From Arcobacter acticola (GTDB lineage: Bacteria; Campylobacterota; Campylobacteria; Campylobacterales; Arcobacteraceae), in assembly GCF_013177675.1 (NCBI RefSeq), contig NZ_CP042652.1, positions 62,001 through 126,000 on the forward strand: a DNA stretch of 64,000 nt, read 5' to 3'. Below the pieces are notes generated by a model. It did no database searches. It had not been told where the DNA came from and saw only the letters and a list, made by a program, of their open reading frames with translations. Of this stretch, positions 24,525 to 43,869 are shown in pieces. Every line of letters begins with the position of its first letter. Within the stretch, counting starts at the first letter, position 1. The position numbers and the translations under genes are program-made.

Positions 24525-24550
24525 TTTTTAAATTAATAAGGAGAGAAAAG

Positions 24551-25991: not shown

Positions 25992-26013
25992 TTATTTATT
26001 ATGTCTAAAAAAT

Positions 26014-26138: not shown

Positions 26139-26171
26139 TATCATTAAATTGTCATTTTTTCTAAATATACT
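26139..26171 (+). promoter_or_regulatory. Direct-repeat promoter of the acyl-CoA dehydrogenase operon
   Basis: TATCAT-N5-TGTCAT-N10-TATACT, with the -10 box 32 bp before the ATG of the acyl-CoA dehydrogenase. It drives a six-gene unit that ends at the stem-loop at 32699-32733. Confidence 0.75.
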
Positions 26172-26203
26172 GCTTTATATTAAATTAATCAAGGAGAATA
26201 ATT

Positions 26204-27343
26204 ATGAATTTTGAATTAAGTGAAGATCACAAGGTTTTAACAGACAGTCTTAAAGATTTTGTTGATAATGAGATAAAACCTATTGCTATGGAAATTGATG
26301 AAAATCATGAGATACCAATGTCATTAATTACACAAATGAGTGAATTAGGATTTATGGGTACATATATTCCTGAGGAGTATGGTGGTGCTGGAATGGATTA
26401 CTTCTCTTATATTTTAACTGTTGAAGAAGTTTCAAAAGCTTGCGCTTCATCTGGCGTATTAATAGCTGCTCATACTTCTTTATGTTGTGGACCAATCTTA
26501 ACTTATGGAACAGAAGAACAAAAGAAAAAATTTCTTCCTGCACTTGCACGTGGAGAAAAAATTGGTTGTTTTTTACAAACAGAACCAAATGCTGGAAGTG
26601 ATGTTGTTAATATTGATACTAAATATGTTGAAAAAGATGATTGTTATGTAATAACTGGTTCTAAAATATTTATTACAAATGGTGCATATAAAGGTACAGG
26701 TATTGTAATTGCTACAAAAGATAAATCATTAGGACATAAAGGTTTATCTGCATTTATAGTTGATTTATCAACTCCTGGTGTTGAAGTATTAAAAAATGAA
26801 GTAAAAATGGGTATTAGAGGAAGTTATACAACAGCCTTTGGTCTTGATGGCGTAGTTGTTCCAAAAGAAAACTTATTAGCAAATGAAGGTGACGGTTTTA
26901 AAATAGCAATGGAAACTCTAAATGCTGGAAGAATCAGTGTTGGAGCTCAAGCTTTAGGTATCGCTGAAGGTGCTTTTGAAAGATCAGTTGATTATACTCA
27001 AGAGAGAAAACAATTTGGGAAACCACTTGCAGCTTTCCAAGCAGTATCAATGAAATTAGCAGAAATGAAAGTTAGAATTGAACAAAGTAAAATGTTAATT
27101 TATAGAGCTGCTTGGTTAAAAGAAAATCACAAACCATATATTATGGAATCAGCGATGGCAAAACTTTCAGCTTCTGAAACAGCTACTTTTGTAACAAAAG
27201 ACGCTATTCAGGTTCATGGTGGATATGGATTTATTTGTGAATATGAAGTTGAAAGAATGTATAGGGATGCAAAAATTACAGAGATTTATGAAGGTACTAG
27301 TGAAATTCAAAGAGTTATCATAGGTAAGATGCTGATTAAATAA
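26204..27343 (+). CDS. Acyl-CoA dehydrogenase (short-chain/butyryl-CoA type)
   Basis: 379 residues, the usual length for the family that oxidises acyl-CoA to trans-2-enoyl-CoA and passes electrons to ETF. Motifs: GCFLQTEPNAGSDV (flavin/substrate loop), ERKQFGKPLAAFQAV, QVHGGYGFICEYEVERMYRD and the catalytic base in ITEIYEGTSEIQR, at the short-chain position (Glu near residue 364). It is first in the operon with the EMO-like reductase, EtfBA, a methyltransferase and 3-hydroxybutyryl-CoA dehydrogenase, so butyryl-CoA is the likely substrate class. Confidence 0.93.
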   Translation: MNFELSEDHKVLTDSLKDFVDNEIKPIAMEIDENHEIPMSLITQMSELGFMGTYIPEEYGGAGMDYFSYILTVEEVSKACASSGVLIAAHTSLCCGPILTYGTEEQKKKFLPALARGEKIGCFLQTEPNAGSDVVNIDTKYVEKDDCYVITGSKIFITNGAYKGTGIVIATKDKSLGHKGLSAFIVDLSTPGVEVLKNEVKMGIRGSYTTAFGLDGVVVPKENLLANEGDGFKIAMETLNAGRISVGAQALGIAEGAFERSVDYTQERKQFGKPLAAFQAVSMKLAEMKVRIEQSKMLIYRAAWLKENHKPYIMESAMAKLSASETATFVTKDAIQVHGGYGFICEYEVERMYRDAKITEIYEGTSEIQRVIIGKMLIK

Positions 27344-27350
27344 ATCTTTT

Positions 27351-27375
27351 TAGGAGTAAAAGTATTTTACTCCTA
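27351..27375 (+). terminator. Intra-operon stem-loop after the acyl-CoA dehydrogenase gene
   Basis: Exact 11-bp stem TAGGAGTAAAA / TTTTACTCCTA with a 3-nt loop, 7 bp after the stop codon. No T-run follows, so it probably tunes expression of the downstream membrane reductase rather than ending the transcript. Confidence 0.55.
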
Positions 27376-27416
27376 GATTATTAGAGATTTGATTTTAGAT
27401 TTATGTGGAGAGTATT

Positions 27417-29426: not shown

Positions 29427-29438
29427 AAGGATAAAAAT

Positions 29439-30206
29439 ATGAAAGTACTTGTATGTATTAAACAAGTTCCAGATATGGAATCAAAATTTAAAATAAATGC
29501 TAATGGAACTTGGTTTGATGAAAATGATTTAGCATATCGTATAAATGAGTACGATGAGTATGCAATTGAGCAAGCAGTTCAATTAAAAGAGCAGTTAAAT
29601 AATGTAGATATTACAGTTCTAAGTGTTGGACCAGCAAGAGTAAAAGAGGCTTTAAAAAAAGCACTAGCAATGGGTTGTGATGATGCTGTTCATATTGAAG
29701 ATGAGCAATCTTCTTTAAAAGAGCCTTTTCAAATTGCAAATTTGATAGCTGATTTTGCTAAAGATAAAGGCTTTGATATTGTGTTTACTGGTATGCAGTC
29801 TCAAGATAGAGGTTCAGGACAAGTTGGAATTATCCTTTCAGAATTATTAAATATGTCTTGTGTTTCGACAATTGCAGAATTTGAATATAAAGATGGAATC
29901 ACTGTTAAAAGAGAACTTGAAGGTGGTTTAAAATCAATTGTAAAAGTTTCAACACCAGTTGTTTTAACTTGTCAATTAGGATTAAATACTCCTAGATACC
30001 CAACTTTGCCAAATATTATGAAAGCTAAGAAAAAAGAGTTACTTACAATTGCATCTACAGAACTTTTTGCAGTTGATAGTTCTTATGAAACAGTTAATTT
30101 TTACCACCCACAAAAAAGTGGAGGAAGCCTTATTTTAGAAGGTTCCGTATCAGAACTTGTTGATAAATTAATCGTAATATTAAAAGAAAAGACTTCGGTT
30201 CTTTAA
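29439..30206 (+). CDS. etfB: Electron transfer flavoprotein beta subunit
   Basis: 255 residues, normal for EtfB, which binds AMP or a second flavin and pairs with EtfA. It begins MKVLVCIKQVPD and contains ALAMGCDDAVHI, FTGMQSQDRGSGQVGIIL and ELEGGLKSIVKV. It lies between the EMO-like gene (12-bp gap) and etfA (14-bp gap). It shuttles electrons from the acyl-CoA dehydrogenase to the membrane reductase. Whether this ETF bifurcates cannot be decided from the sequence, but the EMO partner argues for simple transfer. Confidence 0.93.
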   Translation: MKVLVCIKQVPDMESKFKINANGTWFDENDLAYRINEYDEYAIEQAVQLKEQLNNVDITVLSVGPARVKEALKKALAMGCDDAVHIEDEQSSLKEPFQIANLIADFAKDKGFDIVFTGMQSQDRGSGQVGIILSELLNMSCVSTIAEFEYKDGITVKRELEGGLKSIVKVSTPVVLTCQLGLNTPRYPTLPNIMKAKKKELLTIASTELFAVDSSYETVNFYHPQKSGGSLILEGSVSELVDKLIVILKEKTSVL

Positions 30207-30220
30207 GAAAGGAAATAATC

Positions 30221-31129
30221 ATGAAATTATTATTAGTTGGAGAATATCGAGAAAAGAAGTTATTAAATGTAACTTATGATTTAGTTGGCATTGCAAATAA
30301 ATTAGGAGCTGATAAAGTGATGGTTGCCTCAGGTTATGAATCTGATTTACCAAAATTTGATGGAAAACTATATTTAGCTAATGCAAATGATGTTGGAGAA
30401 TATAATCCAAACATACATAAACAAATGATTTTAGATGTAGTTGAAAAAGAGAATCCAGATGTAATTGTATTTATTCACTCTTCTTTTGGTTGGGATTTAG
30501 CTCCAAGAGTTGCAACTGCTTTAAAAGCTGCCCAATTTACAGAAGTAATTGATTTTAAAGATGGTTCTTTTATAGTTCCTTCTTGTAATTCAAAATTAAG
30601 AAGAGAACTAAAATCAAAAACTAATAAAACTGTAATAACAATTCAGGCTGGTGCATTTGCATTTTCAGATGAATCAACTGCTTCACCTATTGTAGAAAAG
30701 ATAACTCCTTCAAATACATCAAATGTAGAATTTGTAAGTTATGAAGAAGCTGAAGCAAAAGGGCTTGATCTAACAAAGGCAGATATTATCGTTACTGCTG
30801 GTAGAGGTGTTGGTAAAAAGGACAATATTCCTATTATTCAAGCATTAGCTACAAAACTAGGTGGAGAATTAGGTGCAAGTCGTCCAGTTGCAGATAATGC
30901 ATGGGTTGACCATAGCCATCAAGTTGGGACTACTGGACAAACAGTATCTCCAAAATTATATATAGCTTGTGGAGTTTCAGGAGCGATCCAACATCTTGCA
31001 GGTATGAAAAAATCTGAGTTTATAGTTGCTATAAATACAGATAAAGATGCACCAATTGGTGAAATAGCTGATGTTTTAATAGTTGCAGATGTACTTCAAT
31101 TTGTACCTGCTTTAACTAATAAATTATAA
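30221..31129 (+). CDS. etfA: Electron transfer flavoprotein alpha subunit
   Basis: 302 residues. The N-terminal domain resembles EtfB. The C-terminal FAD domain has VTAGRGVGKKDN, GASRPVADNAWVDHSHQVG and LYIACGVSGAIQHLAGM, the diagnostic EtfA FAD-binding signature. It forms a heterodimer with the EtfB encoded upstream. It is slightly shorter than E. coli or human EtfA because the N-terminal domain is compact. Confidence 0.94.
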   Translation: MKLLLVGEYREKKLLNVTYDLVGIANKLGADKVMVASGYESDLPKFDGKLYLANANDVGEYNPNIHKQMILDVVEKENPDVIVFIHSSFGWDLAPRVATALKAAQFTEVIDFKDGSFIVPSCNSKLRRELKSKTNKTVITIQAGAFAFSDESTASPIVEKITPSNTSNVEFVSYEEAEAKGLDLTKADIIVTAGRGVGKKDNIPIIQALATKLGGELGASRPVADNAWVDHSHQVGTTGQTVSPKLYIACGVSGAIQHLAGMKKSEFIVAINTDKDAPIGEIADVLIVADVLQFVPALTNKL

Positions 31130-31153
31130 GAATTTTAATAAAAGGTTGATACT

Positions 31154-31804
31154 TTGGATAAAGATTTTTGGAATGAGAGATGGGAAAAAGAGGAAATAGC
31201 TTTTCATATGAATGAAGTTAATCCTATGCTTATAAAACATTTTTCAGAGTTATCTTTAGAAAAACAAAAAAGAATCTTTATTCCTTTATGTGGAAAAACA
31301 TTAGATATTGAGTGGTTATTGGCTAGAAACTACAAAATTATTGGGGTTGAATTAAATGAATTAGCTGTTAAAAGTCTATTTATTGAATTAAAAATAGAAC
31401 CAACAATTTTAAAAACAAGTGACTTTATAATTTATAAACATGAAAATATAGAAGTATTAGTAGGAGATTTTTTCAATCTATCTAAAAGTCTTTTGGGAAA
31501 GGTTGATTTAATTTATGATAGAGCAGCTCTTGTTGCTCTACCTAAAGATATGAGAAAAAAATATTCAGCGCACTTATTAAATATTACAAGTGGTGTTTCT
31601 CAACTACTACTAACTTATGAATATGATCAAAATACAATGAAAGGTCCACCTTTTTGTGTGGATAGCCTTGAAGTAGAAGAATATTATTTTGATATTTATT
31701 CATTAGTTTTACTTGAAAAAAATGAAAACCTTCCAAGTGGATTAAAAAGAAAATCAAATGGATGTGAAAAAGTTTGGCTATTAAAAAAAAATAAAAAAGT
31801 TTAA
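31154..31804 (+). CDS. tpm: Thiopurine S-methyltransferase (TPMT)-family methyltransferase
   Basis: 216 residues with the TPMT family signature: FWNERWEKEEIAFHMNEVNP, IFIPLCGKTLDIEWL (SAM site) and VDLIYDRAALVALP. The start is TTG at 31154 (AAAGG upstream); no better ATG exists. Bacterial TPMT-like enzymes methylate thiols, selenium or tellurium species, and some make methylated sulfur gases. Its position inside an acyl-CoA oxidation operon, between etfA (24 bp) and hbd (11 bp), is odd and unexplained. Confidence 0.8.
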   Translation: MDKDFWNERWEKEEIAFHMNEVNPMLIKHFSELSLEKQKRIFIPLCGKTLDIEWLLARNYKIIGVELNELAVKSLFIELKIEPTILKTSDFIIYKHENIEVLVGDFFNLSKSLLGKVDLIYDRAALVALPKDMRKKYSAHLLNITSGVSQLLLTYEYDQNTMKGPPFCVDSLEVEEYYFDIYSLVLLEKNENLPSGLKRKSNGCEKVWLLKKNKKV

Positions 31805-31815
31805 AAGGAGAAATA

Positions 31816-32691
31816 ATGGAAATAAAAGAAGTAGGAATCATTGGTTCTGGACAAATGGGAAATGGGATAGCTCACGTATGTGCTTTATCTGGATATAAAG
31901 TTGTATTAATAGATATTGCAGAAGAAGCATTAACTAACGCAATAGGAACTATTAAGAAAAATCTTAAGAGACAAGTAGAAAAAGAAAAAATTTCTCAAAG
32001 TGATATGGATAGAGCTTTATCTAATATTGTTACTAATACAGAGTCAAAAGCTCTTAAAAATGCAGATTTGATTATTGAAGCTGCTACTGAGAATTTTGAT
32101 TTAAAAGTTAAGATTTTTAAAGGAGTATTAGAATATATTAAAGAAAGTTGTTTATTATCAACAAATACTTCAAGTATGTCTATTACTAAATTAGCTGCTA
32201 ATACAGATAGACCTGAAAGATTTATTGGTTTACATTTTATGAATCCAGTTCCAGTTATGAAGTTGGTAGAAATTATTCCTGGAATTGCAACAAGTGATGA
32301 AATGTTAGAAACAACAAAATCATTCGCTGAATCTTTAGGTAAAACAATTGCAGTAGCAAAAGATTATCCAGCTTTTATTGCTAATCGTATTTTAGTTCCG
32401 ATGATAAATGAAGCAATTTATTCTTTATATGAAGGAGCAGGAGATATTAAGTCAATTGATACTGCTATGAAACTTGGAATGGGACATCCAATGGGTCCAT
32501 TAGAGTTGGCTGACTTTGTAGGTTTGGATACTTGTCTAGCAATAATGAATGTATTATATGAAGGATTTGGTGATACTAAATATAGTCCTTGTCCATTATT
32601 AGTTAAATATGTGGAAGCTGGATGGTATGGAGTTAAATCTGGAAAAGGTTTCTATGATTACTCAGGTGCTACACCTATTCCTACTAAATAA
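31816..32691 (+). CDS. hbd: 3-hydroxybutyryl-CoA dehydrogenase
   Basis: 291 residues, a stand-alone NAD(P)-dependent (S)-3-hydroxyacyl-CoA dehydrogenase. The Rossmann loop is VGIIGSGQMGNGIAHVCA. The catalytic His lies in GLHFMNPVPVMKLVEII, followed by DYPAFIANRILVPMINEA and the C-terminal domain MGHPMGPLELADFVGLD. It converts 3-hydroxybutyryl-CoA to acetoacetyl-CoA. It is last in the acd operon; the thiolase that uses its product lies 2.5 kb downstream under a similar promoter. Confidence 0.94.
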   Translation: MEIKEVGIIGSGQMGNGIAHVCALSGYKVVLIDIAEEALTNAIGTIKKNLKRQVEKEKISQSDMDRALSNIVTNTESKALKNADLIIEAATENFDLKVKIFKGVLEYIKESCLLSTNTSSMSITKLAANTDRPERFIGLHFMNPVPVMKLVEIIPGIATSDEMLETTKSFAESLGKTIAVAKDYPAFIANRILVPMINEAIYSLYEGAGDIKSIDTAMKLGMGHPMGPLELADFVGLDTCLAIMNVLYEGFGDTKYSPCPLLVKYVEAGWYGVKSGKGFYDYSGATPIPTK

Positions 32692-32698
32692 AAATTTT

Positions 32699-32733
32699 AT
32701 AAACTATTTTAGCAAATAGCTAAAATAGTTTAT
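32699..32733 (+). terminator. Terminator of the acyl-CoA dehydrogenase operon
   Basis: Exact 15-bp stem, ATAAACTATTTTAGC with its complement, around a 5-nt loop, 7 bp after the hbd stop codon. It separates the operon from the next direct-repeat promoter, at 32759. Confidence 0.75.
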
Positions 32734-32758
32734 CTAAGATTTCTCATTAAATATTACT

Positions 32759-32791
32759 TATCATAATTTTGTCATTATATATTTATATACT
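32759..32791 (+). promoter_or_regulatory. Direct-repeat promoter of the thioesterase pair
   Basis: TATCAT-N5-TGTCAT-N10-TATACT, 30 bp before the ATG. It matches the shared architecture exactly. Confidence 0.75.
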
Positions 32792-32821
32792 TCTTATATG
32801 TAAATTATTAGGAGAATTATT

Positions 32822-33253
32822 ATGAGTATCTGGAAAAAAACTTTTACATTAGAGTCACTTAATGAAAAATGTAAAAATACTGCTGTAGAAACTTTAGGTA
32901 TTAAAATTACAAAAATTGAAGATAATTCTTTAGAAGGTGAAATGCCTGTAGATTCAAGAACCCATCAAATACATGGTATCTTGCATGGAGGAGCTTCTGT
33001 TTTATTTGCTGAAACATTGGGAAGTATTGCCGGTGTTGTAGCTGCTAAACCTGGTTATACAGTTGTTGGATTAGATATAAATGCAAATCATTTAAGAGGT
33101 GTTAGTGAAGGCTTTGTTGTAGGTATTGCAACTGCTATTCATATTGGTAGAACTACTCAAGTTTGGGATATTAAAATAAAACATAAAGAAACTGATAAGT
33201 TAGTTTGTATCTCAAGATTAACAGTTTCTGTTATAGAAGAGAAGGAAGAATAG
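32822..33253 (+). CDS. PaaI/MenI-type hotdog acyl-CoA thioesterase
   Basis: 143 residues. The motif HQIHGILHGGASVLFAETLG is characteristic of the PaaI/YdiI (MenI) thioesterase group, whose catalytic acid is the Glu in FAETLG. YdiI-like enzymes hydrolyse aryl- and acyl-CoA esters, with DHNA-CoA as one physiological substrate. Here the gene shares the catabolic promoter, so release of CoA from stalled acyl-CoA intermediates is more likely. It is followed 2 bp later by a second thioesterase gene. Confidence 0.83.
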   Translation: MSIWKKTFTLESLNEKCKNTAVETLGIKITKIEDNSLEGEMPVDSRTHQIHGILHGGASVLFAETLGSIAGVVAAKPGYTVVGLDINANHLRGVSEGFVVGIATAIHIGRTTQVWDIKIKHKETDKLVCISRLTVSVIEEKEE

Positions 33254-33255
33254 AA

Positions 33256-33633
33256 ATGAAAGTTAGAATTTATTATGAAGATACAGATGCAGCAGGAATT
33301 GTGTATCATGCAAATTTTATAAAATATTGTGAAAGAGCTAGATCTGAAATATTCTTTAAACAAGGATTTAATTCTCATAATAAAACAAAAAATGAGCATT
33401 TTGTTGTAAGAAATATCGTTTGTGATTTTGTACAAACTTCAGTTCTAGGTGACTTATTAGAAGTTAAAACAAAAGTTCTACAGAGAAAGAATACTTCTGT
33501 TATCTTAAATCAAGATATCCTTAGAGGCAAAGAGTTAATTTGTTCTTTTCAAGTTGTTCTAGTTTATGTACAAAACTTTAAAGCTATAAAAATACCCGAT
33601 GAAGTATTTGAAATATTAGAAAATAATAGTTAA
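33256..33633 (+). CDS. ybgC: YbgC-type hotdog acyl-CoA thioesterase
   Basis: 125 residues from ATG 33256, preceded by GAAGGAAG inside the end of the upstream gene; an upstream in-frame extension to 33205 overlaps that gene and lacks the family's conserved start. It opens with MKVRIYYEDTDAAGIVYHAN, the YbgC signature, followed by FIKYCERARSEIF. YbgC acts on short-chain acyl-CoA or acyl-ACP. It is coupled to the PaaI-like thioesterase and ends at a strong stem-loop. It is not next to tol-pal genes, its usual setting in proteobacteria. Confidence 0.85.
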   Translation: MKVRIYYEDTDAAGIVYHANFIKYCERARSEIFFKQGFNSHNKTKNEHFVVRNIVCDFVQTSVLGDLLEVKTKVLQRKNTSVILNQDILRGKELICSFQVVLVYVQNFKAIKIPDEVFEILENNS

Positions 33634-33664
33634 TTAGCATATTATATATCTCTTTTAATCTTTT

Positions 33665-33699
33665 GTGTGTTAAATAAATTAAATATTTATTTAACACAC
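33665..33699 (+). terminator. Terminator after the thioesterase pair
   Basis: Exact 15-bp stem GTGTGTTAAATAAAT with its complement and a 5-nt loop, about 30 bp after the stop codon. It is preceded by TTTT, and its long AT part may work in both directions. Confidence 0.7.
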
Positions 33700-33791
33700 G
33701 ATATTACTATTTACTTACCCTTATAAATAATTCTTTTAATTTTTTAAATTTAAATAACTTTATTTCTAAATTAATTTAGAGATGATAAATT

Positions 33792-33824
33792 TGCCATGTT
33801 TTTATCATTATTTATTCATATACT
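33792..33824 (+). promoter_or_regulatory. Direct-repeat promoter of atoDA-thiolase-HK-RR
   Basis: TGCCAT-N5-TATCAT-N10-TATACT, with the -10 box 43 bp before the atoD start. No stem-loop of terminator quality separates thiolase from the kinase gene, so this promoter may also drive the two-component genes. Confidence 0.72.
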
Positions 33825-33867
33825 TTCAGTGTAAAAATAATTTATGCTATGAAAAAAGGAGGCAGAG

Positions 33868-34515
33868 ATGGAAAAGGTAATAGATATATCTGAGATTAAA
33901 AAATTTCTAAAAGATGGAATGATAATTTCTATTGGTGGTTTTTTTGGCTGTGGAAATGCTCATAATATTATAGATGAAATATTAAAAACTGATGTAAAAA
34001 ATTTGACTATTGTCGCTTCTGATACAGTTGTTGATGGTAAAGGAATAGGAAAACTAGTTGCTGATAATAGAATATCTAAACTTATGGCTACCCATATTGG
34101 TACAAATAAAGATACTCAAAAGCAAGTAAACGAAGGTCTTATTGAATTAGAATTAATACCTCAAGGAACTTTAGCTGAAAGATTGAGATCAGCATCTGCT
34201 GGATTAGGTGGCGTTTTAACACGAACCGGATTGGGTACATTAGTTCAAGAAGGTAAAGAAGTAATTATTGTAGATGAAAAAGAGTACATTTTAGAAAAAC
34301 CAATATTTGTTGATTTAGCCATTATAAAAGCGCATACTGCAGATAGAGCTGGAAATTTAATTTATAACGGTTCTTCACGAAATTTTAATGTCGCAATGGC
34401 AGGAGCAGCTAAGATAACTATAGCTGAAGTTGAGAACATAGTTGAAAATGGAGAGTTAAATCCCAACTTTATACATACACCATTTGTTTATGTAAATTAT
34501 TTAGTAAAGGCTTAA
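33868..34515 (+). CDS. atoD: 3-oxoacid/acetoacetate CoA-transferase subunit A
   Basis: 215 residues, the alpha subunit of a family I CoA transferase. The motif ISIGGFFGCGNAHNIIDEIL matches the CoA-binding glycine loop, and GGVLTRTGLGTLVQEGK is conserved downstream. It transfers CoA from acetyl-CoA or acetoacetyl-CoA onto a free short-chain acid. It starts with ATG after AAAAAGGAGG and is followed 1 bp later by the beta subunit gene. Confidence 0.92.
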   Translation: MEKVIDISEIKKFLKDGMIISIGGFFGCGNAHNIIDEILKTDVKNLTIVASDTVVDGKGIGKLVADNRISKLMATHIGTNKDTQKQVNEGLIELELIPQGTLAERLRSASAGLGGVLTRTGLGTLVQEGKEVIIVDEKEYILEKPIFVDLAIIKAHTADRAGNLIYNGSSRNFNVAMAGAAKITIAEVENIVENGELNPNFIHTPFVYVNYLVKA

Positions 34516-34516
34516 C

Positions 34517-35155
34517 ATGGAAGCAAAAGAGATAATAGCACAAAGAGTTGCAAAAGAATTTAATAATGGTGACTTTATAAATTTAGGTATAGGCTTACCT
34601 ACTTTAGTAGCCAATTATGTACCTAAAGATGTAGAAATTATTTTACATTCTGAAAATGGTTTTGCAGGGGTTTGGGATAAGGCACATGGGGATGATATTA
34701 GCAAAGATTTGATTGATGCAGGTGGTACGAATGTTGTATTAAGAGCTGGTGGAGCATTTTTTGATTCTTGTACATCTTTTGAAATCATTAGAGGTGGTCA
34801 TATTGATATTACTGTTTTAGGTGCTTTAGAAGTAGATCAAGAAGCTAGTTTGGCTAGTTGGAATATTCCTGGGAAATTTGTTCCTGGAATGGGTGGTTCT
34901 ATGGACCTAGTAAGTGGGGTGAAGAAAGTAATTATTGCTATGTTACACACTGCTAAAGGAGCTCCTAAAATACTTGAAAAATGTACTTTACCTTTAACTG
35001 GAAAAAATGTAATAAGTATGATTATAACTGAGTTGGGAGTTTTTAAATTTATAAGTGGGAAGTTACATTTAGTAGAACTTATTGGTGATACAACATTAGA
35101 ACAGATAAAAGAAGTTACTCCAGCTTCTTATATTGTTGCATTAAAAAATAATTAA
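34517..35155 (+). CDS. atoA: 3-oxoacid/acetoacetate CoA-transferase subunit B
   Basis: 212 residues, the beta subunit that carries the catalytic glutamate in ILHSENGFAG. The surrounding motifs NLGIGLPTLVANYVP and GGHIDITVLGALEVDQ are typical. With AtoD it would activate butyrate or a similar acid at the expense of another CoA ester. Its partner thiolase lies 20 bp downstream. Confidence 0.93.
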   Translation: MEAKEIIAQRVAKEFNNGDFINLGIGLPTLVANYVPKDVEIILHSENGFAGVWDKAHGDDISKDLIDAGGTNVVLRAGGAFFDSCTSFEIIRGGHIDITVLGALEVDQEASLASWNIPGKFVPGMGGSMDLVSGVKKVIIAMLHTAKGAPKILEKCTLPLTGKNVISMIITELGVFKFISGKLHLVELIGDTTLEQIKEVTPASYIVALKNN

Positions 35156-35175
35156 TAGAATATGAGGATTAAAAA

Positions 35176-36369
35176 TTGAAAGTATATATTGTAGAAGCAA
35201 AAAGAAGTGCTATTGGGAGTTTTTTAGGAACTTTAAAAGATGTGAAACCTGGTGATTTAGCTGGTCAGGTAATAAAAGATTTAACAAAAAATATTGATAA
35301 TAATATTGTAGATGAAGTTATTGTTGGGAATATCTTAAGCGCAGGACACTCTCAAGGGATAGGAAGACAAGCTGCAATATTTGGAGGAATGCCACATTCA
35401 ACTGTTGCATATTCATTAAATATGTTATGTGGTTCAGGAATGAAAGCTGTATTAAATGCTGTTGCTGAAATAAAATCAGGTGAAAAGAATGTAATAATTG
35501 CTGGTGGTGTTGAAAGTATGTCTGGAGCACCATTTTTAGTTTCATCAAAAGCTAGATCTGGTTTAGGACTAGGAGATGAAAAACTTGTTGATTCTATAAG
35601 TGATGCTCTAACAGATGCCTTTGAAGGTTATCATATGGGAATAACTGCTGAAAAAATTGCTGAAAAATTCAATATTTCTAGACAAACGCAAGATGAATAT
35701 GCTTTAGATTCTCAAAGAAAAGCAATAGCCGCGGATAATGCCGGAAAATTTGTAGATGAGATAACTCCTATTGTCGTTAAAACAAGAAAAGGCGAGATAA
35801 TATTTAATAAAGATGAATATATTAATAGAAATACTTCTTTAGAAAAATTGAATAATCTAAAAGCTGTTTTTAAAAAAGATGGAACAGTAACTGCTGGAAA
35901 TGCCTCTGGAATAAATGATGGTGCAAGTTTTACTCTAATTGCATCAGAAGATGCTGTTAAAAAATATAATTTGAAACCTTTGGTAGAAATTGTAGATATA
36001 GCTCAAGTTGGGATAGATCCTTCTGTTATGGGATTAAGTCCAGCATATGCAATCGAAAAGTTATTAAATAAAACAGGTGTTGATATAAGTGATATTGATG
36101 TTATTGAAATAAATGAAGCTTTTGCTGCCCAAATTTTAGGTGTATTTGAACTATTAAAAGAGAAAGTAAATTTAACAGATGAAATTTTAAATGAGAATAT
36201 GAACGTAAATGGAAGTGGAATAGCTTTAGGACACCCTGTTGGTGCTAGTGCAAATAGAATTATTGTTTCATTAATTTATGAGATGTTAAAACAAAACTCT
36301 ACATATGGTTTAGCTTCATTATGTATCGGAGGGGGACTAGGAACTGCTATTTTACTTAAAAAAGTATAG
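35176..36369 (+). CDS. atoB: Acetyl-CoA acetyltransferase (thiolase)
   Basis: 397 residues. The acylated cysteine is in NMLCGSGMKAVLNAV (near residue 87). The other active-site motifs NEAFAAQ, GHPVGASAN and LCIGGGLG are all present. It cleaves acetoacetyl-CoA into two acetyl-CoA. The start is TTG 35176 after GAGGA. Together with AtoDA it completes the pathway begun by the acd operon. A histidine kinase gene starts 60 bp downstream with no strong terminator between. Confidence 0.94.
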   Translation: MKVYIVEAKRSAIGSFLGTLKDVKPGDLAGQVIKDLTKNIDNNIVDEVIVGNILSAGHSQGIGRQAAIFGGMPHSTVAYSLNMLCGSGMKAVLNAVAEIKSGEKNVIIAGGVESMSGAPFLVSSKARSGLGLGDEKLVDSISDALTDAFEGYHMGITAEKIAEKFNISRQTQDEYALDSQRKAIAADNAGKFVDEITPIVVKTRKGEIIFNKDEYINRNTSLEKLNNLKAVFKKDGTVTAGNASGINDGASFTLIASEDAVKKYNLKPLVEIVDIAQVGIDPSVMGLSPAYAIEKLLNKTGVDISDIDVIEINEAFAAQILGVFELLKEKVNLTDEILNENMNVNGSGIALGHPVGASANRIIVSLIYEMLKQNSTYGLASLCIGGGLGTAILLKKV

Positions 36370-36429
36370 TAAGTTTATTGATATTATATTATTATGATAT
36401 TATATTTTCAAATAACAATCGGGATGTGA

Positions 36430-37569
36430 ATGAAGAAGAAGTATTATAATAAGTTAAATAAAAAATTAAATTTTGAGGATGTATTGTTGGACGCATTACC
36501 AAACCCCATATATTATAAAGATATAAAAGGGGATTTTATAAGATGTAATACTAGATTTGCAGATTTGGCTAGTACTTCTAAGAAAAAAGTTATAGGTAAG
36601 TCTGCTTATGAATTTTTTCCTAAAAGTGCTGCTGATAGGCATAAACAAATTGATGTGCAAATCATGAAAACTTTGCAACCTTATGAGGATGAAGTACATT
36701 TCATAAAAAAAGATGGTGAAGTAAGATATTACAATTTAAGTAAGGCTGTATGTTTAGATTATAAAGGCATGGTTGCTGGTATTGTTTGCATTATGACAGA
36801 TATTACTGAAAGAATCAAAGAAAAAGAACTTTTAATCCAACAAAGTAAGTTTGCTGAAATGGGTGAAATGATAGCTGCAATTGCTCATCAATGGAATGAG
36901 CCTTTGGTTGAACTTTCTGCACAAATTCAGAAAATGCAACTTTTTTACTCTTCAAATGTTATTGATAAAGAAAAAGTATCTAATTTTGTAATTGATTCTA
37001 TGGTTCAAATTCAATATATGTCTGTGACTTTAAATGATTTTAGAAATTTCCTAAAACCATCTGTTTTAAAAGAAGAGTTTGAAGTTAAAAAAGCAATAAA
37101 AGAAATTTTTGAAATAGTCGGTAAACAAATTTTTTATTTTAATATCAAAGTAAACTTTGAATATAACACTAATGATGAAATAATGATTTATGGCTATAAA
37201 AATGAGTTAAAACAGGTTTTATTAAATGTTATAAATAATGCAAAAAATAAACTTGTAAAACTTAATGAAAAAAATACTTTCAATGGAATCATCACAATTA
37301 GAATAAATGAGAGTAAAAAATATAATATTATTGAAGTTATTGATAATGGAGGTGCTATTGAAGGAAGTATTATGGACCGTTTATTCGATCCATTCTTTAC
37401 AACAAAAGAAAATGGCACTGGAATTGGATTATATATGGCAAAAATTATAGTTGAAGATAAAATGTCTGGAAAAATTGAAGTTAAGAATGATGGTAAAAAT
37501 GTAATATTTTTAATCAAAATCCCAAAAATAAAGAAGCATAAATATGAAGATATTCTTATTAGAAGATAA
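36430..37569 (+). CDS. PAS-domain sensor histidine kinase, cytoplasmic
   Basis: 379 residues with no signal peptide or membrane helix. A PAS domain spans about residues 15-130 (LPNPIYYKDIKGDFIRCNTRF, ending in GIVCIMTDITERI). The phosphoacceptor is His153 in AAIAHQWNEPLVELS. The ATP-binding domain has the N box (ELKQVLLNVINNAKN) and G boxes (IEVIDNGGA, TTKENGTGIGLYMAK). Its catalytic half is closely similar to that of the 735-aa kinase at 38871-41078, but the periplasmic sensor is absent. It overlaps its response regulator gene by 26 bp and probably belongs to the atoDA-thiolase transcript. Confidence 0.88.
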   Translation: MKKKYYNKLNKKLNFEDVLLDALPNPIYYKDIKGDFIRCNTRFADLASTSKKKVIGKSAYEFFPKSAADRHKQIDVQIMKTLQPYEDEVHFIKKDGEVRYYNLSKAVCLDYKGMVAGIVCIMTDITERIKEKELLIQQSKFAEMGEMIAAIAHQWNEPLVELSAQIQKMQLFYSSNVIDKEKVSNFVIDSMVQIQYMSVTLNDFRNFLKPSVLKEEFEVKKAIKEIFEIVGKQIFYFNIKVNFEYNTNDEIMIYGYKNELKQVLLNVINNAKNKLVKLNEKNTFNGIITIRINESKKYNIIEVIDNGGAIEGSIMDRLFDPFFTTKENGTGIGLYMAKIIVEDKMSGKIEVKNDGKNVIFLIKIPKIKKHKYEDILIRR

Positions 37570-38191
37570 TAAAACATTAAATGAAGCAATTAAATTAAAA
37601 TTTGAATTAAAAGGTTATAAAGTATATTCATACTTATGTGGTGAAGAAGCTTTTAATAATATTACAAATGGTTTTTCATGTTTTCTTCTTGATATTCATG
37701 TTCCAAATGTAGATGGATTAAAAATTCTTAAAAAGATACGTGAATATTATGATAATGTTCCTGTTGTAATTATCTCATCAACTGTAGAACTTGATATTAT
37801 AAAAAAATCATATAGTTTTGGTTGCAATGATTATTTAAAAAAACCATTTTTTATAGATGAATTGGAAATCAAAGTTGATAAACTTTGTAATATTCCTGAT
37901 AATGAAGTTCTTTTTGATGAGAAGAGTTTTTTCAATTTTAGTGAAAGTATTATTACTATTGATGGAGAAAAGAAAGTATTAACTGAAAAAGAAAATCTAC
38001 TTGTAAATCTATTTTTATTAAATAAAAATAAATTAGTGAGTTATGAAAACATACAAAACTATGTTTGGAAAGGTGAATATGCATCTATTGATGCAATAAG
38101 AACACTTATTAGAAGATTAAGAAAGAAAATAGATAAGACTACTATAAAAGCTTCATCTAACAGAGGATACTATTTATATGTAGAATGTTGA
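37544..38191 (+). CDS. OmpR/PhoB-family response regulator 1
   Basis: 215 residues: a receiver domain with the acidic pair (LLEDN), phospho-Asp50 (CFLLDIHVPNVDG) and Lys in YLKKPF, then a winged-helix DNA-binding domain. The recognition helix region IDAIRTLIRRLRKKI is nearly the same as in regulator 2 (IESI-like variant at 38230-38874), so both should read similar DNA. The gene overlaps the kinase gene. It is a candidate activator at the TRTCAT direct repeats, which have the PhoB-type 11-bp spacing. Confidence 0.88.
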   Translation: MKIFLLEDNKTLNEAIKLKFELKGYKVYSYLCGEEAFNNITNGFSCFLLDIHVPNVDGLKILKKIREYYDNVPVVIISSTVELDIIKKSYSFGCNDYLKKPFFIDELEIKVDKLCNIPDNEVLFDEKSFFNFSESIITIDGEKKVLTEKENLLVNLFLLNKNKLVSYENIQNYVWKGEYASIDAIRTLIRRLRKKIDKTTIKASSNRGYYLYVEC

Positions 38192-38229
38192 ATTTAAAAT
38201 ATATTTTTAAATTCTTTCTTTTTAATATT

Positions 38230-38874
38230 TTAGTTACTTTTAAATATATATCCTGTATCAACAACAGTTTGAATATACTCTTTATCAATTACTTTTCTTA
38301 CTCGTCTAATAAGGCTTCTTATTGATTCTAAAGATGCAAAATTACCTTCCCAAACATAATTTTCTATAGATTCGTATGATATTACTTGATTCTTTTTTGT
38401 TAAAAATAGATTCATTAAAAGTTTTTCTTTTTTTGTTAATCTAATTTCTTTATCATTCATTTTAATTACTGATGATTTAAAATCAAAACAACAATTCTCA
38501 TCAAAAAATATCTCATCATTTTGTATTTTACAGAGTTTTTCAATTTTGATTTCTAATTCATCTATGAAAAATGGTTTCTTTAAAAAATCATTACATCCAA
38601 AATCATAGGCTTGTTTTATGACATCAAGTTCAACACTTGCGCTTATAATAATTACAGGTAAAGTAGGATAATACTCTCTAATTTTTTTAAGGATCTTTAT
38701 TCCATCAATATTTGGAACATTTATATCTAAAATAAAACATGAAAAACCATCTGATACCGCTTCAAACGCCTGTGCTCCGTCTGTAAAAGTTAAAAGATTA
38801 TATCCTTTCATTTTTAGTCGTTTTGTTATAGTTTCATTTAACTTTTTATTATCTTCTAATAATAGAATTTTCAA
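38230..38874 (-). CDS. OmpR/PhoB-family response regulator 2
   Basis: 214 residues, a clear paralogue of regulator 1: phospho-Asp50 (CFILDINVPNIDG), the FLKKPFFIDELEIK segment, and recognition helix region LESIRSLIRRVRKVI. It overlaps the upstream kinase gene by 4 bp and is convergent with regulator 1, with only 38 bp between the stops. It is the last gene of the apparent lutABC-kinase-regulator unit. It is a candidate regulator of the direct-repeat promoters. Confidence 0.88.
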   Translation of the reverse strand: MKILLLEDNKKLNETITKRLKMKGYNLLTFTDGAQAFEAVSDGFSCFILDINVPNIDGIKILKKIREYYPTLPVIIISASVELDVIKQAYDFGCNDFLKKPFFIDELEIKIEKLCKIQNDEIFFDENCCFDFKSSVIKMNDKEIRLTKKEKLLMNLFLTKKNQVISYESIENYVWEGNFASLESIRSLIRRVRKVIDKEYIQTVVDTGYIFKSN

Positions 38875-41078
38875 TTTTGTACCTTTTTATGGGGAAGTTT
38901 TATAGTGAAAACAACATTATTGTTATCATTTCTAACTTTAATTATTCCTCTCATTTTATCTTCAATTATTACTTTTGCCATATAAAGACCAAAGCCAGTT
39001 CCTGATTCTTTTGTAGTGAAGTATGGATCAAATATTGAATGTATAATTTTTTCATCAATTGCTCCACCATCATCAATTATTTCAATAATATTGTAATTTG
39101 ATGATCTTTCTATATTGATATTGATATGTGCTTTTTTACCAAAATCAGTATTTTTTTCAACTATTTTATTTTTTGCATTATTCAACAGATTTAATAAAAC
39201 TTGCTTAAATTCATTTTCATAGCCATAAATTAGAAGTTCTTCATTTTCATTTTTATAATTAAAAGTCATTTCAATATTTGAATAAAATATTTGTTTTCCA
39301 ATAATTTCATTAATCTCTCTTAATGCTTTTGATATGGAGAATAACTTTTTTTTAGTTGATGGTTTCAAGAAGTTTCTAAAATCACTTAATGTTTTTGACA
39401 TATATTTAATTTGCACCATTGAATCATTTACGAAATCTTTAACTTCCATATCTTTTAATTCATTTAATAAATATGATGTTTGTATATCTTGAACCAATGC
39501 TGATAATTCCACCAAAGGTTCATTCCATTGGTGGGCAATTGCAGCAATCATATCACCCATTTCTGCCAATTTACTTTGTTGTATCAAGAATTGTTTTTGT
39601 TGAACTCTTTCTGTTATATCATCCATAATACAAACAATTCCACCAACGGTTCCATCTATATTTTTATAAACAGCTTTATTTAAAATTATATGTTTCATCT
39701 CATTTGTTGGTGTATGAAAAGTAAATTCAGAGGTACTTGTTGAAAAAGTTGTTAGTAATTCTTGGTCTATTATAGTGTTTGCATTTGCAACTTTAAATGA
39801 AAAGAAATCAAAAGCAGTTTTTCCAATAATTTCATCTCTGCTACTATTTACTAAAGATGCAAAGCTGATATTACAGCCTAAAAACTTACCATCAACATTT
39901 TTGTAATATATTGGATTTGGAATGGTATCTAGTAAAACTTTATCAAATTCTATTCTATTTGATAACTCTAATTCTAGTTTTTCTCTTCTTTGAATATTTG
40001 CTTTTAATATAATAACAATTGTACTAAGTATAAATATTATTAAAGCTGTAAATATAAAAAGTTTTGAATGCTCTTTATATACAGTTGCAGGCTCATTTAT
40101 TATCACTGGATTACCAATATAAGGAGAAATGTCAATGTTAAATTTATCTAACTCTTTGTAGTCAAACATATAAATATTTGGAGATTTTTCAATTATTGGA
40201 ATATCAGATATTTTTTTTCCATTAAAAATTTGAAGAGCCATTTTTGAAACCGATTCTCCTTGAGCAATTGCAGAAGTTAAAAGACCACCTACTATCCCAT
40301 TATCTAAATAGAAATCCCAAAGACCATAAATTGGAACTTGACTTACTTCTTTTACTTGTGCAAAACTTTGTTTATAGGTAAAGTATTTTCCCGTGGTATC
40401 TTTGAATAAAAGAACAAATAGTATTACACTATTTTCTTTATCTAAATTTGAAACTTTTTGTCTTAAATTATTTATTTCTAAATCATCTGTATATTCAATG
40501 TTAAATTTATTTTTGTATTTTTCAATTATTGGTCGCAAATCTCTTTTAACTGCATAACCTGTATTTGAAGTATCATTAATTATTAAAAGATTTTTCAATT
40601 TTGGATGTAGTTTTGAAATAAGTTCAAAGTTTTTTTCTAAATCAACATCTTCAGCAACACCTGTCATATAGTTTTTTAAATTATTTTCATCTAATAATAC
40701 CTTGTCAAAATTGTTTATTCCACAAAATAAAACGGGAGTATTTTTAAATAAATATTCATGATATTTAATCATAAAATCAAAAGCAGTGTTATCACTTACG
40801 ATTATTAAATCAAAGATTCTACCCTCAAATTGTTGTTTGTAAAGTTTTGCGAGGCTATTTAAGTATTCTGCATTATCAATTCTTTTTGTATCCATATAAA
40901 CAGTTGTAACTTCTATTTCTGCTTTTTTATATTCAGAAAAAGTTTTTTCTATAGCTTTTGATATGTCATCACTCCAAGCATATCCCTTATGATAAGAGTG
41001 TAAAACCAATACTTCTTTGCTAGTATTTGCAAAAAGAAAATTTAAAAAAAGTATGCTAAATAGTAAAAAAAATTTCAT
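38871..41078 (-). CDS. Sensor histidine kinase with periplasmic binding-protein-like domain
   Basis: 735 residues. A signal/anchor sequence (MKFFLLFSILFLNFLFA) is followed by a periplasmic domain of about 310 residues resembling ABC-type substrate-binding proteins (EVLVLHSYHKGYAWSDDI, IIVSDNTAFDFMIKYHEYLF). A membrane helix follows (LFIFTALIIFILSTIVIIL, about 340-360), then a PAS domain (LPNPIYYKNVDGKFLGC) and the kinase core with AAIAHQWNEPLVELS (His near residue 510) and TTKESGTGFGLYMAK. It begins 25 bp after lutC on the same strand, which suggests that it senses a ligand linked to lactate use. Confidence 0.9.
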   Translation of the reverse strand: MKFFLLFSILFLNFLFANTSKEVLVLHSYHKGYAWSDDISKAIEKTFSEYKKAEIEVTTVYMDTKRIDNAEYLNSLAKLYKQQFEGRIFDLIIVSDNTAFDFMIKYHEYLFKNTPVLFCGINNFDKVLLDENNLKNYMTGVAEDVDLEKNFELISKLHPKLKNLLIINDTSNTGYAVKRDLRPIIEKYKNKFNIEYTDDLEINNLRQKVSNLDKENSVILFVLLFKDTTGKYFTYKQSFAQVKEVSQVPIYGLWDFYLDNGIVGGLLTSAIAQGESVSKMALQIFNGKKISDIPIIEKSPNIYMFDYKELDKFNIDISPYIGNPVIINEPATVYKEHSKLFIFTALIIFILSTIVIILKANIQRREKLELELSNRIEFDKVLLDTIPNPIYYKNVDGKFLGCNISFASLVNSSRDEIIGKTAFDFFSFKVANANTIIDQELLTTFSTSTSEFTFHTPTNEMKHIILNKAVYKNIDGTVGGIVCIMDDITERVQQKQFLIQQSKLAEMGDMIAAIAHQWNEPLVELSALVQDIQTSYLLNELKDMEVKDFVNDSMVQIKYMSKTLSDFRNFLKPSTKKKLFSISKALREINEIIGKQIFYSNIEMTFNYKNENEELLIYGYENEFKQVLLNLLNNAKNKIVEKNTDFGKKAHININIERSSNYNIIEIIDDGGAIDEKIIHSIFDPYFTTKESGTGFGLYMAKVIIEDKMRGIIKVRNDNNNVVFTIKLPHKKVQN

Positions 41079-41103: not shown

Positions 41104-41691
41104 TCAAGATTTTGTAAAAATTACATAGCCAGATTTTGGTCCATGAGCTCCGATAACTAATGATTGTTCTATATCAGCTGTTTTTGATGGTCCTGAAATA
41201 AATACACCATATCCATTATTATCAAAATTTAATTTTTGATAAGCTTCATGCATATTATTTAGTATATCTTTTTCATCAATTACAATAACAATATTCTGTG
41301 CTATAAAATATAAAGCTCTATGTCTATTTTCTTCATCTTTCATCCAAATAGCACCATTTTCTGCAATTGCAAAATTACCTTTTACAACTGCTAAATCAAT
41401 ATCTTTTAAAGTATGAACATCTTCTTGTTCATTAGCATTAAAATTTCCAACATTGCAAAATTCAACATTTGATGCAATTTGTTTTTCATCTGGGTACAAC
41501 TCTTTAATAGTTTTATCCAAATCAGATTTATTTATTAATAAAGCTTTCCCTCCCACACTTTCAATCATTGTTGAAAAAGTTTGAAACTTATCTTCAAATT
41601 TTATTCCAAAGTTATCATATGATGGAAGAGGAACTTCTTTTACTATATTATTCTCTTTTATATTTTTAAGTATTAATTCTTTACTAGTCAT
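41104..41691 (-). CDS. lutC: L-lactate utilisation protein LutC
   Basis: 195 residues, an LUD-domain protein. Typical strings are GNFAIAENGAIWM and VIGAHGPKSGYVIF. With LutA and LutB it oxidises L-lactate to pyruvate, with electrons entering the quinone pool. It overlaps lutB by 8 bp. The sensor kinase gene follows 25 bp downstream. Confidence 0.88.
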   Translation of the reverse strand: MTSKELILKNIKENNIVKEVPLPSYDNFGIKFEDKFQTFSTMIESVGGKALLINKSDLDKTIKELYPDEKQIASNVEFCNVGNFNANEQEDVHTLKDIDLAVVKGNFAIAENGAIWMKDEENRHRALYFIAQNIVIVIDEKDILNNMHEAYQKLNFDNNGYGVFISGPSKTADIEQSLVIGAHGPKSGYVIFTKS

Positions 41692-43063
41692 CTAAGTCTC
41701 CTGCTATAAACATTTCTTTAAAACTTTTCTCTGGCATTTTTGGTAAATCTCTTTGTTTCCCCCAAATATTTCCTTTATTATAAAGTAGTGAATTTGGTAG
41801 TTTTGGAACAATTTTTCTAGCAACTTTTCCAGCAAAGTCAAATAATGCAGGTTTTCCCATTAACCAAGCGGTTACCTTCATAGCCATTTTTTTCTTTGAA
41901 TCGATTAAATTTGCATTTCCTAAGTCTTGTCTTAAACTATAAAGTTGTGAGTCTAAATCTATTTTTACAGGACAAACATTTGTACAAGAACCGCATAAAG
42001 TACATGCAAATGGCAATGAATTATGTTTTTCAGGTTCTTTTTTGGCTCCTAATATTGAACCAATTGGTCCAGGAATTACATATTCGTAAGAGTGACCACC
42101 ACTTCTTCTATAAACAGGACAAGTGTTCATACAAGCACCACATCTAATGCAGTTTAATGCTTTTTTATTTTTTTGTGATGCTAAAAATTGAGATCTATTA
42201 TTATCAACAATAATAATATGCATTTCTCCACCTTCAATAGGAGCGTGAAAATGAGAAGTATATGAAGTGATTGGCTGTCCCGTTGCACTTCTTGCTAGTA
42301 ACCTTGTAAATACAGATAAATCTTCAAGTCTAGGAATGATTTTTTCAATTCCCATTGAAGCGATATGTAGCTTTGGAACACTAGCTCCCATATCAGCATT
42401 TCCTTCATTTGTACAAACAACAACTCCACCTGTTTGAGCAATTGCGAAGTTTACACCTGTCAGTCCTGCTTGTGCAGTTAAAAAATCTTCTCTTAAACTG
42501 GCTCTTGCTGCTCTTGTTAAATAAGTAGGATCATCATTTCCTTTTTGGGTTCCTAAATGTTCATGAAAGGTATCAGATACATCCATTTTTTTAAGATGAA
42601 TAGCTGGTAATACAATATGAGAAGGTGGTTCATTTCTCAATTGAACAATTCTTTCACCTAAATCTGTGTCAATAACTTCTATACCCCTTTCTTCTAAAAA
42701 TGGATTTAAATGACACTCTTCTGTTAGCATAGATTTTGATTTAACTAATTTCGTAACATTTTTTTCTTTTAAAAGTCTATATGCAATTTCATTGTGCTCT
42801 TTTGCATCAATTGCAAAATGAACTGTAATTCCCTTTGCTTTTGCATTTTTTTCAAACTCAATTAAATATTTATCAAGATTTGCCATAGTATGAGTTTTTA
42901 TTTGACTTGCAAATTCTCTTAATTGTTCCCATTCTGGAATTGATTTACTAGCTCTGTCTCTTTTTTCTCTTACGAACCATAATGCTTGGTCATGCCAGTG
43001 CATTCTTTCATCATTGGCTACAAATACTTTTGCATTATCTGAGTGATTGTGATTTGTACTCAT
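41684..43063 (-). CDS. lutB: L-lactate utilisation iron-sulfur protein LutB
   Basis: 459 residues. The N-terminal LUD domain (NFAIAQTGGVVVCTNEGNAD) is followed by a ferredoxin-like region with two 4Fe-4S motifs (CIRCGACMNTCPVYRRSGG and CTLCGSCTNVCPVKIDL), as in LutB/LldF. It is the electron-transfer core of the LutABC complex. It overlaps lutA by 4 bp and lutC by 8 bp, a tightly coupled operon. Confidence 0.93.
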   Translation of the reverse strand: MSTNHNHSDNAKVFVANDERMHWHDQALWFVREKRDRASKSIPEWEQLREFASQIKTHTMANLDKYLIEFEKNAKAKGITVHFAIDAKEHNEIAYRLLKEKNVTKLVKSKSMLTEECHLNPFLEERGIEVIDTDLGERIVQLRNEPPSHIVLPAIHLKKMDVSDTFHEHLGTQKGNDDPTYLTRAARASLREDFLTAQAGLTGVNFAIAQTGGVVVCTNEGNADMGASVPKLHIASMGIEKIIPRLEDLSVFTRLLARSATGQPITSYTSHFHAPIEGGEMHIIIVDNNRSQFLASQKNKKALNCIRCGACMNTCPVYRRSGGHSYEYVIPGPIGSILGAKKEPEKHNSLPFACTLCGSCTNVCPVKIDLDSQLYSLRQDLGNANLIDSKKKMAMKVTAWLMGKPALFDFAGKVARKIVPKLPNSLLYNKGNIWGKQRDLPKMPEKSFKEMFIAGDLDD

Positions 43064-43809
43064 GGTTTAACTCCTGCAAGAATTTCAACTATATGCATTA
43101 CTTTTATTGGATAGTTATTTCTGTTTATTAATCCATCCATATGCATTAAACATGACATATCAGCTCCTGTCATAATTTGTGCTGATGAATCTAGATGATC
43201 TTTGATCCTATCTTTTCCCATTGCAACTGAAATATCTTCTTCTGCAACTGAAAAGGTACCACCAAAACCACAACATTCATCTTTTCTTTTTAACTCAACT
43301 AATTCAATATTATTAACTGTATTTAAAATATTTTCTAACTTTGAATTATATGGAACATTAAGTTCACTAGCCGTTCCTAATTTTAAAACTCTATGTCCAT
43401 GACAAGAGTTATGTAATCCTACTTTATAAGGAAATGAAATATTTAAATTTAAATTTTCAACTTTTATAATATCATGTAAAAATTCGCATACTTCATAAAT
43501 AGAAGCTTTTACTTTATTGTAATCTTTATCATTATTGAAAAATTCATTATAGTGTTCTTTTACCATTGATACACAAGAGCCACTAGGTGCTACAATATAA
43601 TCAAATTCTTTAAATGTATTTACGAAGTTTATTGCTAGATTCTTAACATCTTTGGAACAACCAGAATTTGCCATTGGCTGACCACAACAAGTTTGATTAA
43701 GTGGATACTCTACATTTAAACCTTGTCTTTTTAATACTTGGTATGTTGCTTTGCAAATATCAGGATATAGTTCATTCATAAAACATGGTATAAATAAGCC
43801 TATTTTCAT
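43060..43809 (-). CDS. lutA: L-lactate utilisation protein LutA (CCG domain)
   Basis: 249 residues with two CCG domains (CCGQPMANSGC and CCGFGGTFSVAEEDI) that bind an iron-sulfur cofactor. It begins MKIGLFIPCFMNELYPDI, the standard LutA/LldE start. It is first in the lutABC operon. Immediately upstream lies one of the eight direct-repeat promoters (43837-43869). Confidence 0.93.
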   Translation of the reverse strand: MKIGLFIPCFMNELYPDICKATYQVLKRQGLNVEYPLNQTCCGQPMANSGCSKDVKNLAINFVNTFKEFDYIVAPSGSCVSMVKEHYNEFFNNDKDYNKVKASIYEVCEFLHDIIKVENLNLNISFPYKVGLHNSCHGHRVLKLGTASELNVPYNSKLENILNTVNNIELVELKRKDECCGFGGTFSVAEEDISVAMGKDRIKDHLDSSAQIMTGADMSCLMHMDGLINRNNYPIKVMHIVEILAGVKP

Positions 43810-43836: not shown

Positions 43837-43869
43837 ATTTTATATTTAAAATATGATAAATGTATGATA
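43837..43869 (-). promoter_or_regulatory. Direct-repeat promoter of lutABC
   Basis: On the minus strand: TATCAT-N5-TATCAT-N10-TAAAAT, ending 28 bp before the lutA start. It lies between lutA and the upstream methyltransferase gene. Same half-site and spacing rules as the acyl-CoA oxidation promoters 10 to 20 kb away. Confidence 0.7.

Follow-up and report, generated by a model that had tools for sequence, protein, structure and literature searches.

The 64,000-nucleotide stretch of Arcobacter acticola analysed here (the window; G000:C1:62001-126000 of a 3.02 Mb genome) carries two paralogous two-component systems that meet tail to tail. HKlut-RRlut ends a lactate oxidation operon (lutABC), and HKato-RRato ends the atoDA-thl operon. 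Sequence comparison indicates that the two systems probably run two adjoining, largely insulated regulons of common ancestry. The pairs meet because RRlut and dctP came to be separated by a β-oxidation/ato island that ends in regulators of its own. A first-pass annotation had instead read the arrangement as an inverted duplication that gave an outside and an inside sensor feeding the same promoters; that interpretation is partly supported overall, and most of it fails.

As first described, the pairs are convergent with 38 bp between the ends of RRato and RRlut, HKato follows the thiolase gene (thl) by 60 bp and HKlut follows lutC by 25 bp; the start codon of RRato lies 26 bp within the HKato gene. 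The reported difference between the sensors was also borne out. HKlut has a periplasmic ABC_sub_bind sensor beside a membrane helix near residue 340, whereas HKato is predicted to be wholly cytoplasmic, because no stretch exceeded 1.6 in a 19-residue hydropathy scan. Compared with solved structures, the HKlut sensor gave one weak match, to an ABC-type solute-binding protein of the sugar family (E 0.003), which names no ligand. The domains are those of an OmpR/PhoB-type two-component system, i.e., a histidine kinase with HATPase_c and a receiver aspartate with a winged helix: HKato combines HATPase_c with a phospho-accepting histidine, and RRato combines Trans_reg_C with an aspartate (D50) conserved in 16/16 ato regulators.

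The close likeness of the two pairs was confirmed, each being the other's best match genome-wide. The kinase cores are 55% identical over 359 aa and the regulators 58% over 209 aa, and the DNA of the two pairs is 71% identical over 1.4 kb in inverted orientation. Among the matches listed (50-60), the next-best kinase in the genome reaches only 37% and the next-best regulator 45%, so that the likeness of the lut and ato pairs is far above the general level. The recognition helices are nearly identical, as had been noted, but this is weak evidence: a third paralog, 46% identical overall, has nearly the same helix (IRALIKRLRKK), and helix identity was therefore dropped as a sign of shared targets. 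The third paralogous pair (G000:C1:2790140-2791879, L069; regulator 46%, kinase 36%) adjoins a 468 aa permease-like gene.

Kinase-regulator interfaces were compared in 16 ato and 66 lut pairs (65 lut rows for regulator positions 11 and 18, RR11 and RR18). In the dimerization and histidine phosphotransfer (DHp) helix of the kinase, the residue 15 positions after the phospho-accepting histidine (H+15) is Lys or Arg in 16/16 ato pairs and Asp or Glu in 66/66 lut pairs. RR11 is Thr in every ato regulator (16/16) and Lys or Arg in 65/65 lut regulators, and RR18, which is Lys in 65/65 lut regulators, is Leu in 15 and Glu in one of the 16 ato regulators. These are the only receiver-domain columns that cleanly separate the lineages, and both lie in alpha-1; the remaining separating columns of the regulators are in the DNA-binding domain, where the wing (202-207) accounts for six. 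The kinases have 31 separating columns in all, the further ones mostly in and around the PAS region. The regulator with E18 (G041) accompanies a kinase with Lys at H+15, a swapped charge pair. The outgroup row (G074) and the outside-family rows have the lut state where readable, and the ato state is thus derived. The concerted switch of interface residues in the ato lineage argues, at the level of sequence, for insulation, although two of the three dominant kinase positions are unchanged; the cross-talk proposed at first pass is not supported but may still occur.

Rather unlikely, in our estimate, is a one-way form of cross-talk, with HKlut also phosphorylating RRato, outside lactate thereby priming the island, and HKato inactive on RRlut because of the two lysines that its own H+15 lysine would face. 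The pairings are compatible with it, since the Asp at H+15 of HKlut would face the neutral T11 and L18 of RRato, whereas the Lys of HKato would face K11 and K18 of RRlut; H+7 and H+11 are identical, and three island boxes have a lut-like first half. Loss of the ancestral Asp/Lys pairing, however, should weaken transfer from HKlut to RRato too.

The promoter boxes of both systems have a common design: two CAT half-sites 11 bp apart, placed 10 bp before the -10 element. The lutA and dctP upstream regions share AAAATATCATAnntTnTCATAT, the second TCAT standing 10 bases before a TAnAAT-like -10, and the region upstream of atoD has the same layout (TGYCATnnTTTTATCAT-N10-TATACT). The pattern CAT-N8-CAT-N10-TWnnnT is present in 41/52 lutA, 32/54 dctP, 13/15 atoD, and 2/2 acd regions, compared with 0.3-0.5% of shuffled regions (acd 0). 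The strict pattern has eight matches in the window versus 0.07 in shuffles, and 10 in the genome versus 2 for a reversed control pattern. Of the two matches outside the window (C1:1763729 and C1:2589896), one lies within a reading frame and the other where a frame starts; their number equals that of the control, and both were taken as chance. Window boxes stand 57-96 bases before ndh, maoC, permease, acd, tesA, atoD, dctP, and lutA; the pattern had been written before the ndh, maoC, permease, and tesA boxes were inspected. The tesA box was seen in G000 only, the other island loci scanned having none. A first motif run, which placed the ato boxes in the wrong register and overstated the class difference, was superseded by the CAT-N8-CAT scan.

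Within the common design there are two classes of box. The lut class is TATCAT/TnTCAT, and the ato class has at least one TGnCAT half. Such a half is present in 38/38 labelled ato-regulon boxes (atoD, ndh, acd, maoC, permease, tesA, thl), compared with 0/40 lutA, 5/37 dctP, 0/11 dld, and 0/1 dcd boxes, and with none of the 69 family lut boxes. Leave-one-out scoring, using one box per region and leaving out loci of ato cassettes and of outside-family genomes, placed 69/69 lut and 29/29 ato boxes on their own side. In the window, the six island boxes favour the ato matrix by at least 13 bits and the two lut boxes favour the lut matrix by at least 12, and each class stands on its own operons, six ato-type boxes on island units and two lut-type boxes on lutA and dctP. 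One shared promoter set is not supported: the boxes have a common layout but form two separable classes. A TG-half box with a TATAMT -10 was found in 16/16 genomes with HKato versus 9/88 others (Fisher 8e-13). This distribution of TGnCAT boxes, and their position on operons linked to RRlut and RRato, make it improbable that the boxes serve some third OmpR-type regulator instead, e.g., the 46% paralog at C1:2790140, despite its similar recognition helix.

Four loci outside the family (L078, L084, L087, L090) have dctP boxes with TGTCAT, the short kinase being present in only one of these genomes (G369, L078). The family lut boxes seem to have lost the G of TGTCAT. A related box, TGTCATATG(T/C)TCA with a TATAAT -10, recurs in genus g9 (G054, G058, G060, G065, G066) and may belong to another regulator.

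With HKato as query and a cut-off of E <= 1e-75, matches were obtained in 72/104 family genomes. The short kinase (HKato type) is present in 16 of the 104, all of which also carry the long HKlut type, and the thiolase gene is directly upstream of HKato in 16/16, with atoDA in 15/16. One genome beyond the family, G369, carries the short kinase unaccompanied by ato genes. In several genomes the ato cassette also has a tripartite ATP-independent periplasmic (TRAP) transporter, together with genes resembling methylmalonate-semialdehyde, 3-hydroxyisobutyrate, and 3-hydroxybutyrate dehydrogenases (named by eye). The ato pair is convergent with and adjacent to the lut pair in six of the 16 (G000, G018, G021, G035, G091, G095), elsewhere in eight (G032, G041, G076, G086, G087, G088, G089, G090), and at contig ends that hide the arrangement in two (G040, G065).

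The HKlut-RRlut pair is widespread and is usually placed before the dctPQM TRAP-transporter genes. Among family loci outside the six island genomes, dctP directly follows RRlut in 36/48; the remaining 12 comprise eight in which dctPQM is absent or replaced, three contig ends, and one deletion scar. Outside the family the junction is found in 12/15 loci. In the six island genomes it is split by opposite-strand genes that end in atoDA-thl-HKato-RRato, and the left end of the island (dctP, then ndh-maoC-permease-acd) was traced in five of the six, namely the window and G018, G021, G035, and G091. The deletion scar is in G009, of the same genus, where a match to window positions 21084-22850 is fused to a match to 37664-39038. 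What is left of RRato in the scar is 84% identical and contains a stop codon, the junction has an overlap of about 6 bases, and the lut and dct genes alongside are intact. Given the usual RRlut-dctP junction and this scar, the tail-to-tail contact is a derived state, and at this place the island has been present and has also been lost. In several same-genus relatives (L040, L042-L045, L048), the place of dctPQM after RRlut is taken by a lactate-permease-like gene of 545-546 aa, and in several of these lut-type boxes are still near the permease unit (counted under dld).

A tree of the joined kinase core and regulator was built for 50 of the 86 collected pairs with IQ-TREE under a mixture model. 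Every ato row falls in a single clade (support 100/100), and a constraint that unites this clade with lut rows from the six island genomes lowers the log-likelihood by 203 units (approximately unbiased (AU) test, p 0.00013). This phylogeny, which the first-pass annotation had named as a check, places the copies apart, not as sisters within the side-by-side genomes, and the ato pair is an old lineage of its own. In genus g1, G000 pairs with G021 among the ato rows but with G018 among the lut rows, where G021 pairs with G020; the mismatch is a hint of either interspecies exchange of the island or uneven loss. The in-place inverted duplication that would have yielded an outside and an inside sensor feeding the same promoters, suggested by adjacent, convergent, mutually best-matching pairs with boxes of common layout, is thus very improbable in view of the rejected tree, the ato pair standing away from lut in eight of 16 genomes (including resolvable deep branches of the ato tree), the intact RRlut-dctP junction elsewhere, and the two box classes. 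The tree refutes a recent event of this kind in this lineage; a deep in-place duplication, later separated, may have occurred.

From these computed features we infer ligands, regulator binding, activation, and insulation in two adjoining, largely insulated regulons. The periplasmic domain of HKlut would sense an outside substrate, presumably lactate to judge from its operon, and phosphorylate RRlut, which would bind the TATCAT-N5-TnTCAT direct repeats before lutA and dctP and switch on lutABC, the HKlut-RRlut genes, and the TRAP transporter with its dld-like dehydrogenase. HKato, which has no outside domain, would use its PAS domain to detect a signal inside the cell, for which acetoacetate, 3-hydroxybutyrate, or a short-chain acyl compound are possibilities given the operon it ends, and would phosphorylate RRato, which would bind the TGnCAT-half boxes before six island units, its own operon among them. 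Both pairs are probably autoregulated, since the genes of each end the operon that its box begins. After an old duplication, the kinase-regulator and regulator-DNA contact surfaces would both have diverged. Only tentatively do we suggest a fuller history, in which the sensor-less pair switched its interface charge and one half-site base together, its regulon then moved as an island into the parent operon, and cross-talk runs at most one way, from outside to inside.

Several observations weigh against this reading of two insulated regulons. Constraining the family lut rows (lut_f1) to one clade costs only 2.75 units (AU p 0.39), with ato beside or inside them; the quick tree places ato beside all family lut rows with support 80, and the careful tree fits either placement. 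Of the dominant specificity positions of EnvZ, H+7 is Val and H+11 Ala in nearly all rows of both lineages, with H+12 differing in part, and the KKPF stretch, expected to hold the beta5-alpha5 loop, is identical in both, so that cross-phosphorylation may persist. The residue switches each occurred once, on a single branch, and therefore do not count as independent replicates. Among the boxes, the lut-like first half kept by three ato boxes of the window is TATCAT, and even the lutA box reaches 14.5 bits with the ato matrix. TGTCAT occurs in five dctP boxes, those of the second dctP of G076 (family) and of the four outside-family loci, and the one dcd box has no TG half. The class count also leaves aside 23 boxes that have no labelled gene downstream, of which 10 carry a TG half and 13 do not. 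In the first motif-refinement scan, 25/106 lutA/dctP regions were boxless, at least some of them owing to a wrong start codon.

Features of the lut and ato systems; positions refer to the window unless a locus is named
Feature	Position	Strand	Details
HKato	36430-37569	+	379 aa; PAS_4 and HATPase_c; H153, H+15 = K
RRato	37544-38191	+	OmpR-type; receiver and Trans_reg_C; T11, L18; wing ASSNR
RRlut	38230-38874	-	OmpR-type response regulator; K11, K18; wing TVVDT
HKlut	38871-41078	-	735 aa; ABC_sub_bind (PF04392), PAS, HATPase_c; H+15 = D
lutC, lutB, lutA	41104-41691, 41684-43063, 43060-43809	-	lactate oxidation operon, HKlut-RRlut at its end
dctP, dctQ, dctM and dld-like FAD/FeS dehydrogenase	16284-22502	-	TRAP transporter and dehydrogenase
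β-oxidation/ato island	22664-38191	+	between RRlut and dctP; ~15.6 kb
lut-type box before lutA	43837-43869	-	lut 26.6 bits, ato 14.5
lut-type box before dctP	22532-22564	-	lut 29.2 bits, ato 9.7
ato-type box before ndh-like gene	22604-22636	+	gene 22664-23821
ato-type box before maoC-like gene	23834-23866	+	gene 23898-24332
ato-type box before putative permease	24492-24524	+	gene 24591-25991
ato-type box before acyl-CoA dehydrogenase (acd)	26139-26171	+	gene 26204-27343
ato-type box before thioesterase (tesA)	32759-32791	+	gene 32822-33253
ato-type box before atoD	33792-33824	+	atoD at 33868, head of atoDA-thl-HKato-RRato
Island deletion scar	L039 (G009:C1:86001-106000), 8075-8789		ndh start fused to RRato end

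The island runs ndh, maoC, permease, acd, an iron-sulfur (FeS) protein, etfB, etfA, a methyltransferase, and hbd, followed by two thioesterases, atoD, atoA, thl, HKato, and RRato. Its acyl-CoA dehydrogenase, electron transfer flavoprotein, hbd product, 3-oxoacid CoA-transferase, and thiolase fit, by annotation, the use of butyrate-like or ketone-like acids. 3-Hydroxybutyryl-CoA dehydrogenase and 3-oxoacid CoA-transferase subunit A scored above their own cut-offs and thiolase above a family cut-off; the permease is called putative because its Pfam match is below the cut-off. For the lut operon, lutC has a LUD domain match, and lutA and lutB were named from gene order and likeness. The island separates the dctPQM and dld-like unit from the rest of the lactate cluster. 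A second dctP-like solute-binding gene in the window (54392-55456), with 75% DNA identity to the G009 dctP over 1 kb, apparently has no adjoining membrane subunits and no box of the CAT-repeat type. A promoter and terminator scan of the locus was uninformative (promoter-like 44 versus 38 in shuffles; terminator-like 1 versus 0.8).

The locus offers a compact natural test case for the parting of duplicated two-component systems, with two regulators and eight promoters in ~22 kb, two box sets that differ mainly in one half-site base, and genomes in which the copy is present, absent, or decayed. For Arcobacteraceae it also points to candidate regulators and boxes of two metabolic programmes, lactate use and short-chain fatty acid/ato catabolism. 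Judged by titles and the starts of abstracts, searches of the open library listed no description of either pair, and the A. butzleri genome paper states that the limited similarity of the remaining two-component systems prevents functional prediction (PMC2147049).

Among known systems, a link to ato genes, in our case deduced from the operon, is common to HKato-RRato and AtoS-AtoC. AtoC is an NtrC-type sigma54 activator, and AtoS is membrane-bound. RRato differs in being OmpR-type, with matches to Response_reg and Trans_reg_C only, and HKato in being cytoplasmic. In Escherichia coli, AtoS-AtoC is described as a two-component system for acetoacetate/short-chain fatty acid catabolism and activates the ato genes (PMC3118216). 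The sensor of BumS-BumR of Campylobacter jejuni is reported as a cytoplasmic PAS protein responding to short-chain fatty acids, a phosphatase without autokinase activity in which the usual kinase residues are missing (PMC11796366, PMC9449129). BumS and HKato are both cytoplasmic PAS sensors from the same phylum, a likeness of features; unlike BumS, HKato keeps H153 and HATPase_c.

For the divergence of paralogous pairs, the comparison is with EnvZ-OmpR and RstB-RstA. The phospho-accepting histidine of EnvZ is H243, making M258 its H+15, and RR11 and RR18 correspond by our count to OmpR positions 15 and 22. The EnvZ-OmpR and RstB-RstA pairs are reported to be insulated by a few co-changing DHp and receiver alpha-1 residues, with EnvZ M258 among the coevolving specificity residues (PMC2991266). 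The fixed ato/lut differences likewise fall on specificity positions, although the change is at H+15 and RR11/RR18 and not at the three dominant kinase positions. The lut and ato systems go beyond EnvZ-OmpR and RstB-RstA in that their DNA box is also split into two classes.

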